In this document: one piece after another, positions 25,912-39,371 of the stretch
How positions within the stretch are numbered: the first letter of the stretch is position 1
Layout: the number at the start of each line of letters is the position of its first letter
DNA from: Verrucomicrobiota bacterium
Lineage (GTDB): Bacteria > Verrucomicrobiota > Verrucomicrobiia > Limisphaerales > Fontisphaeraceae
Reading direction: 5' to 3'
Assembly: GCA_037139415.1 (NCBI GenBank)
Contig: JBAXGN010000041.1
Span: forward strand, 1 to 45,971
DNA length: 45,971 nucleotides
The notes under the pieces: model-generated
Told to the model about the DNA's origin: nothing
Databases searched by the model: none
Seen by the model: the letters and a program-made list of their open reading frames with translations, nothing else
Translations under genes and position numbers: made by a program

Positions 25912-28824
25912 ATGAGATCAAAACCAAATCGCTTACCCAGTCGCGCTCCGAGCGTGAGGCGATTCGGCTTCAAGGAGCTGCTGGTTCTGTTTTCTGCCTT
26001 GCCGTTGCTGGCCCAAGCTCAGGCACTCCCCGAGAATCTGGCACCCCAAGCGCTCATCACCGCCTCGGCTGAATACAGCGCACATTACCAGGCAAAGTTT
26101 GTTGCCGATGGCCGCATTCCCTTGCCCGGTTCCAAGGCAGATGTGGATCAGGCCTGGTGTGTGCCCGGAGCCGCTGCCAGAAACGGTGCGACCCTGACGT
26201 TTACCTGGACCAACCCCGTCCAGGTGGCCGAGGTGGTCTATTATGGCCGCACCGCCTGGATGGCGTCCGAGTGTTGGAAAGACTATCAATTATCCCTCGA
26301 CGACCAGGCGCAACCAGCAGTTCAAGGGCAGTTCCAGATGGGTCATGGCCCTCAGCACATTCGCCTGGCCACACCGGCACAGGTCCGCAAACTGACGCTG
26401 ACATTTCGCAACTGGCATGGCGGCCTGAATCCCGGGGCGTCGGAGATTCAAATATTTGCCCAAGTGGTGCCGGAAGGGGTGCTGCCAAAATTCGTGAAAC
26501 TGGATGCGGAAAGCCAGCCGGAAACACCGGAGTCGGTCCTGGTGGATTCGCCTGAATTAAAAGATAAATTTTTGAGTGGTGGCCTGGGATTCCAAAAATT
26601 ATTGGTCATCCAACGGCATGAACTCAATCCCACTCATGTCTATACGTATCATGTGGAGGGGTTCCAGCCAGGCGGCGGATTGTGGGTCTATGCCTTCGAT
26701 GCGAAATCCGTCAAAGCCGGCAAGATATGGAAGCGGCTCGTGGATTCATCGGAAGGTCAAATCCTGGATTGTGACCTTTCGCCTGATGGCCGTGAAGTTG
26801 TGTTTAGCTGGCGGCAAAAGAAAAGCGAGGGGTACCACATCTTCCGCATGAATGTCGATGGCTCCAAATGCCGCCAACTGACGGATGGTCCGCATCATAA
26901 TTACAACGCCTGCTGGCTGCCCGATGGTGGCATTGCGTTTCTTTCGACCCGCACCTCGCGGTTTGCCTACTGTTGGATTTCCCCGGTGGGGGTGTTGCAC
27001 CGCATGGAACGGGACGGTTCCCGCGTGCAGCAACTGTCTGCCAACATTGTGAACGACTTTACCCCGAGTGTCATGGAGGATGGCCGGCTGATTTATTCCC
27101 GGTGGGAATACGTGGACAAACCGGCCATCCCCATCCAGAGCCTGTGGACGATTCGACCGGATGGAACCGGTCTGGCCGGTTATTATGGCAACCGAGTCTT
27201 GAGTCCTGCCACGTTCATGGAGGCACGCTCGATTCCCGGGCGGTCGGGCGAGGTGCTGTGTGTGCTGACCAGCCACAATGGCCCCTGCCGTGGCGCGATC
27301 GGCATGATCAACCCTAAGCTTGGGAACAACACGCAGGCCGCCATCCGCAATCTCACCCCGGAAGTCAAGATTGGCCGGGTGGATCAGGGCAGTGGTAATA
27401 ATATCCGTGGCCCGTACGAAAGCCCCTTCCCGCTTGATGGTCAATATTACCTGGTTTCCAAACGCGGCATGCTGTTGGTGCGTGATTATGAGGGCACCCA
27501 AACCGCCACGCTATTATCACCCAAAGATGGACTGGGCTATTATGGTGCCCGGCCAATCCGCTCGTACCGGCGTCCGCCCGTGTTGGATGCCCAAACCGAT
27601 ACCAATGCGGGGCCTTGGGCCACCGTGGTGTTGCAGGATGTCTATCGCGGCCTGGAACCCTTCGTGCAGCGCGGTGAAGTGAAGGAGATCTGCGTGGTGG
27701 AAGAAATGCGCAAGGCGGTGCGCACTGAGGTGGCGAATCGCGCCTTTGGTTTTCAATTCCCCGTCATTTCCTGCGGTGCCACCTATGCCGGGAAAAAAGT
27801 CTGGGGTTATGCCCCAGTTGCCCCGGATGGTTCGGCCTGTTTCCAGGTGCCTGCCGGAGTCCCCATCTATTTTCTCGCTTTGGACGCCCAGGGACGCGCC
27901 GTGCAACGCATGCGTACCTTCACCCATTTGATGCCCGGTGAAACCCAGGGTTGCATGGGGTGCCACGAACCTCGCCAGCAAACGCTTGCCGCGCAACATC
28001 CGCCGGTCATCCCCCGAAAACCGGATACGCTGCGTCCGCCGGACTGGGGCGCCGGGATCGGCTTTGACTATTCCACCGTGGTCCAACCCGTGCTTGATCG
28101 TAACTGCACCCTATGCCACAGCGGGTCCACCCCTGCCGGGAAGGTGGATCTTTGCGGCGATAAAACCGACTTTTTCAGCGTTTCGTATGAATACCTGGCG
28201 CGCGGGCGGAAAAAAATTTCCGAAGGGGAATATGACAACCCGTATGTAAACTGGATTCCCACCTATAATGGCATGGAGGCGAACATTCTTCAGATTCAAC
28301 CCAAATTCTGGGGTTCCCATGCCAGCAAACTCACGGACGTAATTCTGAGTGGACACCGCGACACCAACGGCCAGCCGCGCATCGAATTGACGGCTGCCGA
28401 GCAGCGGCGCATCTTTGCTTGGATTGATTTGAATGTCCCCTACTATGGAACTTCGGAGACGGCTTATCCGGAAAAGAAAGGCTGCCGCCAACTCTATCCG
28501 ACGGATCTCGACAAGACGCTGGCGGAGGTTGCCAAGCGCCGTTGTGTCTCCTGCCATGCCGAGGGAAAAATCCCGCGCCAGGTCTGGGTGCGCATCGTGC
28601 AGCCGCAACGAAATAATTTCCTCACGGCCCCGCTGGCCCGCGATGCGGGCGGCAGCGAACGGTGCGGCCGCCCGGTATTCCAGAATACCGATGATCCGGA
28701 TTATCTGGCCATCCTGCGCACTTTTGAAGCGATTCAAAAACAAATCGAGGAACGCCCGCGCATGGATATGGCCGGGGCGCAACCGGCCAAGGTGGACCGG
28801 TCCTGCCTGGGGAAAGTGGATTGA
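25912..28824 (+). CDS. Exported c-type cytochrome protein, hydrazine-synthase-alpha-like
   Basis: A 970-residue protein with a signal peptide. The N-terminal F5/8-type (discoidin-like) domain covers about residues 45-185. A TolB-like propeller follows (GQILDCDLSPDGREVVFSWR, YNACWLPDGGIAFLSTRTSR). The middle domain is of the type named after hydrazine synthase alpha. Three CxxCH haem sites lie at residues 681 (CMGCH), 732 (CTLCH) and 878 (CVSCH). Proteins of this class are frequent in Planctomycetota and Verrucomicrobiota that do not carry out anammox, so the family name gives no function here. It lies between two glycosidase genes; a periplasmic redox role in sugar oxidation is inference. Confidence 0.85.
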   Translation: MRSKPNRLPSRAPSVRRFGFKELLVLFSALPLLAQAQALPENLAPQALITASAEYSAHYQAKFVADGRIPLPGSKADVDQAWCVPGAAARNGATLTFTWTNPVQVAEVVYYGRTAWMASECWKDYQLSLDDQAQPAVQGQFQMGHGPQHIRLATPAQVRKLTLTFRNWHGGLNPGASEIQIFAQVVPEGVLPKFVKLDAESQPETPESVLVDSPELKDKFLSGGLGFQKLLVIQRHELNPTHVYTYHVEGFQPGGGLWVYAFDAKSVKAGKIWKRLVDSSEGQILDCDLSPDGREVVFSWRQKKSEGYHIFRMNVDGSKCRQLTDGPHHNYNACWLPDGGIAFLSTRTSRFAYCWISPVGVLHRMERDGSRVQQLSANIVNDFTPSVMEDGRLIYSRWEYVDKPAIPIQSLWTIRPDGTGLAGYYGNRVLSPATFMEARSIPGRSGEVLCVLTSHNGPCRGAIGMINPKLGNNTQAAIRNLTPEVKIGRVDQGSGNNIRGPYESPFPLDGQYYLVSKRGMLLVRDYEGTQTATLLSPKDGLGYYGARPIRSYRRPPVLDAQTDTNAGPWATVVLQDVYRGLEPFVQRGEVKEICVVEEMRKAVRTEVANRAFGFQFPVISCGATYAGKKVWGYAPVAPDGSACFQVPAGVPIYFLALDAQGRAVQRMRTFTHLMPGETQGCMGCHEPRQQTLAAQHPPVIPRKPDTLRPPDWGAGIGFDYSTVVQPVLDRNCTLCHSGSTPAGKVDLCGDKTDFFSVSYEYLARGRKKISEGEYDNPYVNWIPTYNGMEANILQIQPKFWGSHASKLTDVILSGHRDTNGQPRIELTAAEQRRIFAWIDLNVPYYGTSETAYPEKKGCRQLYPTDLDKTLAEVAKRRCVSCHAEGKIPRQVWVRIVQPQRNNFLTAPLARDAGGSERCGRPVFQNTDDPDYLAILRTFEAIQKQIEERPRMDMAGAQPAKVDRSCLGKVD

Positions 28825-35362: not shown

Positions 35363-35477
35363 TGCTTTTGGGGCAGCTTCCTGATTTTCGCTCGCGTTCA
35401 TGCTTTGCAGGCTGCCCCAAGGCCCGGAGGGAGTCAAGCCTGTGCCATCCCAAGTGGCGGAGAATCTTTTCGGCAAA

Positions 35478-35555
35478 GTGACGCCGGAGGCACAGTCGGC
35501 GCAATCCCTGCATGATGAACTGTGCCGCGCCACCGAAGCATTGATGCTTGCCTGA
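35478..35555 (+). pseudogene. 3' end of a second copy of the membrane protein gene
   Basis: It reads VTPEAQSAQSLHDELCRATE then ALMLA and stop, matching the end of the protein at 2845-3831 (VDPAAQAVQSLHDELCRATE, ALMLA). Bases 35501-35563 are identical to the reverse complement of 2837-2899. The upstream part in frame (PEGVKPVPSQVAENLFGK) does not match. It is a tail-only remnant. Confidence 0.75.
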
Positions 35556-35617
35556 TTTTGCCAATCGGGATTTAAGGGTCCTTGACGGGATACTGCACAG
35601 CAATTAGCGTTCTCTGA

Positions 35618-36658
35618 ATGAACGGCAATCAAGAGCGAAGCTGCTTAACCGCAGCCCTTCATGGGGCTGTAAAAAGCCATTCCCTTTTAGTTTATTTGCA
35701 TGTTTGCTTGAGTTTTAGCCTTGCGCTTTCGGCGGCGAGGGGTGCGGTAACTGATACCTGCAAAAACCTGAAGAAGCAGTGTGAGGCAATCAATGCTGAG
35801 GCGGTAACGCTGGCGGTCGAAGATATGGGGAAAAGGTTTTCCGGTCGCTACGACGTGTCGAAACATCGTTCGGCTGCGGATGCGTTTGCCCGGAACCGGG
35901 AAGCGCTGATTAAATCGCTTGGCGCAGGTAAAGTTGAGGAGGTTGAAAAGGCCGCCAAACTGCTGGCCGGAGTGCGGGCGGCGCTGCTGGCCAATCCACT
36001 GCTGGACGGGGAGAAAATACTGTTTGTTAGACGCAATATCTCCAGCGGGGCACGGCAGGATGTTCGCGGCAGTGAAGGGACCACGCAGAAACTGGGCTTC
36101 ATCTCACTTAACAGCCGTTGCCATGTGACGATTGCAAGGAAAGGCTGGCAGGACGAAATTACGGTGTTGAGCGAGATCAGAGGTGAACCGAAACTCACAA
36201 CTTTATACAAGCCGGACCAGGATGTGATTGTCCGGGATGTTGATCTTGATTTCACCGGCAGCCGGCTGATGTTCTCCAGCCTTGACACTAACCGGCAATG
36301 GGCGGTTTATGAAATCGGTGCCGACGGTAAACACTTAAAGCAGGTTTCGCCGTCCGCCTATCGCGATGTTGAATGGTTTAATGCCAAATATCTTCCCGAT
36401 GGCCGCGTCATCATGCTTTCAACGGCATCGTATCAGGGCTTGCCTTGCGAGGGTGGCAGTACGCCCATGGCCCTGCTTTATCTGATGGATTCGACGTCCG
36501 GCAGTATCCGCCGGCTGACCTACGAACAGGACAGTGATTATACACCCTCGATCACCGGCGATGGCCGCATTCTTTATACGCGCTGGGAGTATTCAGATCT
36601 CTCGCACTATTTCGGGCGCCGACTCATGACCATGAATCCGGACGGCACTGCTCAATAG
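35618..36658 (+). CDS. 5' part of the TAG-split cytochrome/FGE gene
   Basis: 346 codons: signal peptide (LLVYLHVCLSFSLALSAARG), helical region and propeller blades (GSRLMFSSLDTNRQWAVYEI, DYTPSITGDGRILYTRWEYS). It stops at TAG immediately after MNPDGTAQ. If translated as it stands it would be an exported propeller without haem sites. Confidence 0.7.
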   Translation: MNGNQERSCLTAALHGAVKSHSLLVYLHVCLSFSLALSAARGAVTDTCKNLKKQCEAINAEAVTLAVEDMGKRFSGRYDVSKHRSAADAFARNREALIKSLGAGKVEEVEKAAKLLAGVRAALLANPLLDGEKILFVRRNISSGARQDVRGSEGTTQKLGFISLNSRCHVTIARKGWQDEITVLSEIRGEPKLTTLYKPDQDVIVRDVDLDFTGSRLMFSSLDTNRQWAVYEIGADGKHLKQVSPSAYRDVEWFNAKYLPDGRVIMLSTASYQGLPCEGGSTPMALLYLMDSTSGSIRRLTYEQDSDYTPSITGDGRILYTRWEYSDLSHYFGRRLMTMNPDGTAQ

Positions 36659-36694
36659 TCTGTTTATGGCAGCGGGTCTTATTACCCTACGACC

Positions 36695-39058
36695 TTGCTC
36701 CAAGCACGGACGATACCGAACGATCCGAATCGGATCATTGGGATTGTCGGTGGACATCACGATGTCCCGGAAACCGGAAGGCTGATCCTGTTTGATACCT
36801 CCTGGTCGCGGCGTTATCCGTTCAAGGTTAAACCCCAAGACAAGATCTGGGGGAAAGAAGGCACCTTACTGAGGATTTCCGTCATCCTGCCCAAGGAGGA
36901 GACGGGGTGCGTTGCGGAAATCCCTGGCCGAGGCGAACCCGTTGAAGGGGATGTGTGCGATACCCAAACCGGCAATCAATGGGAGCGACGGAAACCGTAT
37001 TTCATTCATCCTTGGCCGCTGGATGGCACCTATTTTCTGGTTAGCGCCAAAAAGACACGCGATTCGCTATGGGGGCTCTACCTGGTTGATCTGTTTGATA
37101 ACATGACGCTGCTGGCGGAAGCGGAGGATGCCGCATTCTTCGAACCCATGCTGTTCGAGCCACGCACGCGTCCGCCGGTCATCCCAGACCGCATACGTTT
37201 AACCGAAACGAATGCATCCGTTCACATCGCGGACATTTATGCTGGCCCAGGGCTGAAGAACATTCCACGTGGCAAAGTGAAATCGCTACGTGTATTTGCC
37301 TACCATTTCAACTATCTGGGTACCGGCGGAGACCAGTTCCTTGGCTTGGAGTCGGGCTGGGATATCAAGCGTATTCTCGGCACGGTGCCGGTTGAGGCGG
37401 ACGGGTCGGCCTGTTTCGAAATTCCAGCCAACACGCCAGTGTCGCTTCAACCGCTTGACGAAGATGGGGCCGCGTTGCAGCTCATGCGTTCCTGGCTGGT
37501 GGGTATGCCGGGCGAACGCGTTTCCTGTGTCGGTTGTCATGAGGATAACCGCAACTCGATCCCGGCCGGTCGGGTCCTGGCCGACCGCAAACCGCCCAAA
37601 ACGTTACAGCCTTGGTACGGGCAGGTCAGGCCCTTCTCGTTCCCGCTGGAAGTTTATCCGGTTGTCCAGAAATACTGTGTTGGTTGTCACACCGGCAAGA
37701 ATGCCCCGGTTCGGAAAAGTGACCAGGGCGGCGTTCCCGGCAAGGAAACTCGCTTGAGCATGAGCAACGCTCAGGAGGCCCACGAAACGCTCCATCCCTA
37801 TGTGCGCCGACCCGGTCCGGAGAGTGACAACATGATGTTTTATCCGATGGAATACCACGCTTCCACCAGTCCACTGATCCAGATGTTGAAGAAAGGGCAC
37901 CATGGCGTGAAGCTCGACCAAGAGGCATGGGAAAGGCTGTTTGCGTGGATTGATCTCAATGTAACTTTCAAAGGCAAGTGGAGCCCAAATGATTACAAGG
38001 GGCAAAATCAGAAGGAGCGGCGGATGCAGATGGCAAAGCTTTACGCCAACACGACCGACTGCCCGGAAGACGAATATGAGCGGCTGGTTGCCGAGTCCAA
38101 GACGCACCCGACACCGGCGTTCATCAACCCTGCGGATGACACCATCCCTGCCACCGATAACCTTACTGCGCCTGGGTTTCCGATGCGCACCGGGCCGGCG
38201 GCAACGATTTCAAAGGCTTTTCGTAAAACCGTGGAACTTTCAGGCGGACGCAAAATGGAATTTGTCCAGATTTCCGCCGGTTCGTTCGTGATGGGCAGCC
38301 TGGATGGCGCGACGGATGAACGTCCACGCGCAGTGATCAAGATCGCCAAGCCTTTCTGGATGGCGGAATGCGAAGTTTCCAACGCTGAGTATCATGAGTT
38401 CGATCCCGCGCATGACACCCGTTATATTGATGCGCACGGTAAAGACCATAATACTCCAGGCTACATCGCGAATCATGACAACCAGCCGGTGGCACGCATC
38501 ACATGGAAACGCGCCATGGAGTTTTGCGATTGGCTGAGCAAGCGGGCGGGTTTAAAAGTACGGTTACCCACCGAGGCCCAGTGGGAATGGGCGGCCCGGG
38601 CAGGTTCCTCCAGCAGATTTTTCTTTGGCGGCTTGGAGGATGATTTCAGCAAGTGGGCCAATCTCGCTGACCGAAGCGTGCGTTGGCAGATGGTCGGCTG
38701 CACTACGCAGGATGTCCAGAAGCGCAGTCCATATCCGCAGGAAAAGAATTTTCCGCTACATGAAGAACGCTTTGAAGACAAGTGGTTCGTGGTGGATTTC
38801 GTTGGCCAGTACCCGCCCAACCCGTGGGGGCTGAAGGACATGGTGGGCAATGTCAGCGAGTGGACCCGCTCCAGCTATTATCCGTACCCTTACGTTGACG
38901 AGGACGGCCGCAATGATGAAAACCTGACCGAGCGCAAGGTTGCACGCGGCGGTTCCTGGAACAGTCGTCCGCGGGAAGCGGGTTCAGCGATACGCCTGCC
39001 ATATGAGACGTACCAACCGGTTCACGACGTGGGTTTCCGCGTCATCGTTGAAGACTAG
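36695..39058 (+). CDS. 3' part of the TAG-split cytochrome/FGE gene
   Basis: Continues in the same frame (from a TTG if reinitiated; no ribosome binding site is evident). It holds the middle domain, two CxxCH haem motifs and the complete SUMF1/FGE-like domain. Without the signal peptide of the first part it would stay in the cytoplasm, where haem c is not attached, so a separate function is unlikely. Confidence 0.7.
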   Translation: MLQARTIPNDPNRIIGIVGGHHDVPETGRLILFDTSWSRRYPFKVKPQDKIWGKEGTLLRISVILPKEETGCVAEIPGRGEPVEGDVCDTQTGNQWERRKPYFIHPWPLDGTYFLVSAKKTRDSLWGLYLVDLFDNMTLLAEAEDAAFFEPMLFEPRTRPPVIPDRIRLTETNASVHIADIYAGPGLKNIPRGKVKSLRVFAYHFNYLGTGGDQFLGLESGWDIKRILGTVPVEADGSACFEIPANTPVSLQPLDEDGAALQLMRSWLVGMPGERVSCVGCHEDNRNSIPAGRVLADRKPPKTLQPWYGQVRPFSFPLEVYPVVQKYCVGCHTGKNAPVRKSDQGGVPGKETRLSMSNAQEAHETLHPYVRRPGPESDNMMFYPMEYHASTSPLIQMLKKGHHGVKLDQEAWERLFAWIDLNVTFKGKWSPNDYKGQNQKERRMQMAKLYANTTDCPEDEYERLVAESKTHPTPAFINPADDTIPATDNLTAPGFPMRTGPAATISKAFRKTVELSGGRKMEFVQISAGSFVMGSLDGATDERPRAVIKIAKPFWMAECEVSNAEYHEFDPAHDTRYIDAHGKDHNTPGYIANHDNQPVARITWKRAMEFCDWLSKRAGLKVRLPTEAQWEWAARAGSSSRFFFGGLEDDFSKWANLADRSVRWQMVGCTTQDVQKRSPYPQEKNFPLHEERFEDKWFVVDFVGQYPPNPWGLKDMVGNVSEWTRSSYYPYPYVDEDGRNDENLTERKVARGGSWNSRPREAGSAIRLPYETYQPVHDVGFRVIVED

Positions 39059-39127
39059 CAGCCGGTCGGTTTAGGTGTCATTCATAGGATGGTTCGTTTT
39101 TGTCTTTAGAGCAGTTTAAATAATGAC

Positions 39128-39223
39128 GCAGCTCTGAAAGCCAAAGCTGCTCACGATATTTGCGGGCAGAATATCAGCGCCGACTGACGTCGAGCGGCTA
39201 CGATATTTAGGGAAATGCCATAG
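39128..39223. repeat. REP-like hairpin element in the gap before the DUF1080 gene
   Basis: GCAGCT at 39128 pairs with AGCTGC at 39145. A block at 39173-39223 (GACTGACGTCGAGCGGCTAC and onward to AAATGCCATAG) is an inverted imperfect copy of 33363-33417. The 39059-39371 gap contains nothing else that I can read apart from the probable promoter of the next gene. Confidence 0.55.
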
Positions 39224-39371
39224 CCAGGCTACTCAGATTCCAGCCATTCCAACTCCTGACTTCAAGCTGCTAATTTCTTGGGCTCATTTTTGCCATGTTT
39301 GGATACTCTCTGGTTTTTTCTCGTGCGGAGCAACGCTTGCATCCCGGCCTGCTTTCTGGTTAATTTCCGCC

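Follow-up and report, generated by a model that had tools for sequence, protein, structure and literature searches.

An in-frame TAG interrupts a predicted dihaem cytochrome/FGE fusion gene in a Verrucomicrobiota genome, probably as a recent nonsense allele

A single in-frame TAG interrupts one member of an expanded family of cytochrome-FGE fusion genes in a Verrucomicrobiota bacterium, and the leading explanation, held at a probability of about 0.7, is a recent nonsense mutation that truncates the gene. The gene lies in the window, which is the whole 45,971-nucleotide stretch of contig JBAXGN010000041.1 that was analysed. Because the gene is uninterrupted at this site in all 80 relatives compared, an ordinary nonsense mutation or an assembly error of one base is most likely, and not a new mode of decoding. 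The features of the locus are listed below.

35618-39058, forward strand: whole cytochrome-FGE fusion frame with one internal TAG (open reading frame; orthologues align over the full length)
35618-36658, forward strand: upstream open segment of 346 codons, a propeller-like N-terminal region (homology to the N-terminal part of intact relatives)
36656-36658, forward strand: in-frame TAG (open reading frame; the column holds Leu or Phe in the closest relatives)
36659-39058, forward strand: downstream open segment of 799 codons, ending in TAG at 39056-39058 (open reading frame)
36659-36759, forward strand: stretch whose predicted RNA fold is unusually stable (z of about -3.3; lowest of 67 windows)
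37271-37543, forward strand: HZS_alpha middle domain PF18582 (Pfam match, E 7.2e-33)
37526-37540, forward strand: first CVGCH haem-binding motif (sequence; kept in relatives)
37676-37690, forward strand: second CVGCH haem-binding motif (sequence; CXXCH kept in relatives)
38258-39046, forward strand: FGE-sulfatase domain PF03781 (Pfam match, E 5.7e-43)

The TAG is in frame with the ATG at 35618 and divides the frame into 346 upstream and 799 downstream sense codons; the terminal codon of the gene is itself TAG. The upstream segment begins with what, judged by eye, resembles a signal peptide and has no Pfam match. Both recognizable domains are located downstream, where PF18582 with its CXXCH sites is followed by PF03781 on a single chain, the arrangement that defines the fusion family; the N-terminal part is joined to them only when the stop is read through. 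The downstream run of 799 codons is not a product of chance, since it contains the HZS_alpha and FGE matches and displays GC by codon position of the coding type. On these sequence features, the frame is predicted to encode a dihaem cytochrome/FGE fusion protein. The original prediction of a cytochrome/FGE fusion gene split by one TAG, with both sides belonging to one family, is borne out by the open frame on either side of 36656-36658, by the two CVGCH motifs and both domains, and by intact homologues that align across the stop. A second gene with an HZS_alpha domain, at 25912-28824, sits ∼7 kb upstream of the interrupted gene; it combines PF18582 with an F5/8 type C domain and a PD40 repeat and is intact.

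The middle domain PF18582 and a CXXCH motif are shared with the alpha subunit of hydrazine synthase (PDB 5c2v). The sequence match to that structure spans only 65 residues, and the studied gene carries an added FGE domain; nothing points to hydrazine synthesis in the studied gene. A literature search for HZS_alpha/FGE fusions turned up only papers on anammox.

The source genome consists of 378 contigs totalling 7.9 Mb and is 98% complete. When the read-through protein was compared with this genome, it matched 53 places, of which only the studied gene has an internal stop; the contigs C86, C12, and C158 harbor full-length paralogues in a single frame. Across 320 genomes of the order, the best relative (G117:C983, also L124) is uninterrupted and 62% identical, followed by G097:C57 at 52% identity. 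A scan of GTDB species genomes with the single protein as query gave no matches, and an alignment of three sequences succeeded as query, revealing 80 loci, mostly from metagenome-assembled genomes of Verrucomicrobia, Kiritimatiellae, Lentisphaerae, and Planctomycetes. The orthologous HZS_alpha/FGE fusion genes of Verrucomicrobia-type genomes (L124, L269, L270, and others), which are up to 63% identical to the studied gene, likewise have a full-length frame with the same domains, and unlike the studied gene they contain no internal stop.

The comparison of the codon with relatives, proposed as a check in the original prediction, shows the site read in one uninterrupted frame in 80/80. The column of the stop holds Leu in 36 loci, Ala in 11, Arg in nine, Met in eight, Lys in seven, Phe and Thr in three each, and Val, Ser, and Gln in one each. 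In the nine closest relatives, which reach 63% identity, the residue is Leu or Phe. With such a mixture of residues, and Leu or Phe in the closest genes, the column is therefore not the site of a special residue.

A different reading is that the locus comprises two genes, one for a secreted N-terminal protein and one for an independently started cytochrome-FGE protein. The downstream segment does have a formal start, a TTG at 36695, but the first in-frame ATG, at 37103, falls within conserved sequence, leaving 148 codons after the stop without one. Relatives split into two genes, the case that would have spoken against the earlier proposal, were seen neither among the 80 loci nor in the genome searches. 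The maturation of c-type cytochromes attaches haem outside the cytoplasm and thus needs export. The downstream segment has no signal peptide, and hence a haem-bearing part lacking an N-terminal signal would presumably not be exported for haem attachment. A promoter scan of 35450-39300 found no sigma-70-type site; as none was detected even before the gene itself, the scan says nothing on a separate downstream gene. Overall, the arrangement as two genes is highly improbable.

The state of the remaining frame bears on the age of the interruption. A 27-residue segment just after the stop (residues ∼400-426) was considered as further damage and rejected: it is absent from more distant paralogues and present in the closest orthologues, and because those orthologues share it, it marks the subfamily. 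No second stop or frame break occurs within the frame at 35618-39058. Given this, and given that ∼3.6% of random substitutions would make a stop, the neutral change since the event is bounded at roughly 82 substitutions in 3438 bases (95%). Relative-rate counts with G097 as outgroup gave 28 unique changes in the studied gene versus 31 in G117 upstream of the stop, and 58 versus 66 downstream. Since these counts reveal no excess change, the stop probably arose recently. In trees of both halves, the root-to-tip distance of the studied gene is inside the range of intact genes; its terminal branch is long in both because no close relative is known, the nearest one available for dating the stop having ∼63% protein identity. 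The locus thus displays what is expected of an incipient pseudogene, namely a premature stop where 80/80 relatives are intact, and little further decay without accelerated change. The original prediction had noted the lack of other damage and offered a very recent nonsense mutation as one explanation, and the evidence favors both statements.

In-frame stops in otherwise conserved bacterial genes are reported to be widespread, and most of them to be short-lived, at the scale of polymorphism within populations (PMC7918605). The nonsense-interrupted genes of that survey resemble the studied gene in carrying one in-frame stop and being conserved otherwise; the stop in the studied gene, by comparison, is known from one genome only.

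The same observations are compatible with an error in the consensus or base call of the metagenome assembly, a base-call error being another of the explanations offered in the original prediction; the living organism would then have a whole gene, and the TAG would reflect a base that is wrong or present in a minority. A change of one base in an otherwise intact and well-conserved frame, with balanced relative-rate counts, and an assembly in 378 contigs are consistent with such an error. Other genes of the genome that are broken by stops look alike, as real alleles would, although an error-prone consensus could do likewise. An assembly error is a rather unlikely explanation that retains appreciable weight, and the change is probably a real mutation.

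These other broken genes emerged from a homology scan for interrupted genes covering 2.46 Mb, or ∼31% of the genome; a scan for split genes by composition only had too low a sensitivity to detect even the studied gene. A sulfatase gene at C83:4027 (L126, G000:C83:2500-6500, 1528-1530) has TAG in place of the Trp in the conserved GKWHLG motif, and its frame is intact apart from it. The Trp site interrupted by TAG in a gene on the minus strand of C18 (G000:C18:25432, in L184) is preceded by 583 open codons and followed by 115; this gene is 52-59% identical to an intact paralogue on C7. In an FGE-domain gene on the minus strand of C98 (G000:C98:1650, L262), TAA is found where the C17 paralogue has Gln. 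A scan of the sulfatase family added a gene on C13 (L127, G000:C13:31000-35000) broken by TGA and a frame change and one on C19 (L128, G000:C19:1-2600) broken by a frame change. The expanded gene families of the genome include several broken members. A further match with TGA, at C40:348, is ambiguous. Matches on C12, C158, C86, C41:37604, and probably C94 were judged to be artefacts, their frames being antisense to homologous genes, and short multi-copy repeats were set aside in the same way.

Of five genes clearly interrupted by a stop, three have TAG despite its being the rarest terminator, which counts against a plain nonsense allele. TAG makes up a larger share of the interruptions than of the terminators, although so few cases carry little meaning. 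The notion that only TAG interrupts genes was prompted by a first scan of 1.65 Mb, in which all three real cases were TAG; it was abandoned when the extension to 2.46 Mb added the TAA case, and it is also contradicted by the TGA with frame break in the sulfatase scan.

The three TAG cases, two of them at Trp sites, are what a genome-wide reassignment of TAG to an amino acid has in its favor. Against it stand the TAA and TGA interruptions as well as the decoding apparatus. Release factor RF1 is present (480.7 bits, well above the cut-off). The search for a suppressor tRNA, which the original prediction had proposed, found none with a CUA anticodon (CTA) among 43 tRNA matches, all with ordinary anticodons, in a bin that is 98% complete; the negative result is strong, though not complete, since the bin lacks a few expected isoacceptors. 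No true PylS was found, the search giving only sub-threshold matches, and so the pairing of a CUA tRNA with a matching synthetase, typical of reassignment or of pyrrolysine-type decoding, is not seen here. Nor is TAG avoided as a terminator: the long open reading frames in 2.46 Mb (n=1411) end in TAG in 258 cases, TAA in 533, and TGA in 620, with similar median distances to the next in-frame stop of 25, 26, and 21 codons, respectively. In addition, 80 GFO_IDH_MocA matches have no internal stop. TAG recoding was rejected on the evidence of RF1, the tRNA set, the terminal use of TAG, and the other kinds of broken genes, and genome-wide reassignment has a very small probability.

Amber readthrough, which the original prediction had also raised, would have some ribosomes insert a residue at the UAG and produce the full-length protein, possibly aided by a fold in the RNA. 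The frame is intact past the stop, and the 101 nt that follow have a predicted fold that is the most stable of the 67 windows along the gene, a point against the nonsense allele; this stretch includes an inverted repeat, GATCCGAATCGGATC, at 36722. Purifying selection at in-frame stops has been reported in bacteria, and values of dN/dS below 1 at such stops are widely reported (PMC7918605), so that partial readthrough is conceivable here, if unproven. However, programmed readthrough is marked by a stop and a stimulatory element that are kept in orthologues, whereas this stop occurs in no orthologue and a comparable fold was found in none of 12 orthologues. A comparable fold is also missing after three other stops that interrupt genes. 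As evidence for readthrough, a single outlier among 67 windows that is not conserved is weak, and the finding of RF1 and of no CUA tRNA goes against it. The fold is thus a faint hint in favor of the earlier suggestion, and readthrough as such is improbable. An even bolder version, to which still less credence is given, is that ribosomes, aided by a lineage-specific RNA structure beginning ∼8 nt downstream, pass the UAG at 36656 often enough to be useful, so that the stop acts as a translational dimmer on the production of the cytochrome-FGE protein; if true, this would be a natural bacterial site of UAG readthrough with a structural stimulator.

Under the preferred explanation of a nonsense mutation, a Leu or Phe codon like those of the closest relatives would have become TAG recently, probably in one base step. 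Translation would then end at 36658 and release a fragment of 346 residues that lacks the haem sites and the FGE domain and is likely non-functional, while the rest of the frame would not yet have decayed. For the interpretation of similar loci, one clean stop in a gene from a metagenome assembly does not amount to evidence of recoding. The interrupted gene matters little alone, as the nonsense change would have cut a single gene of an expanded family.
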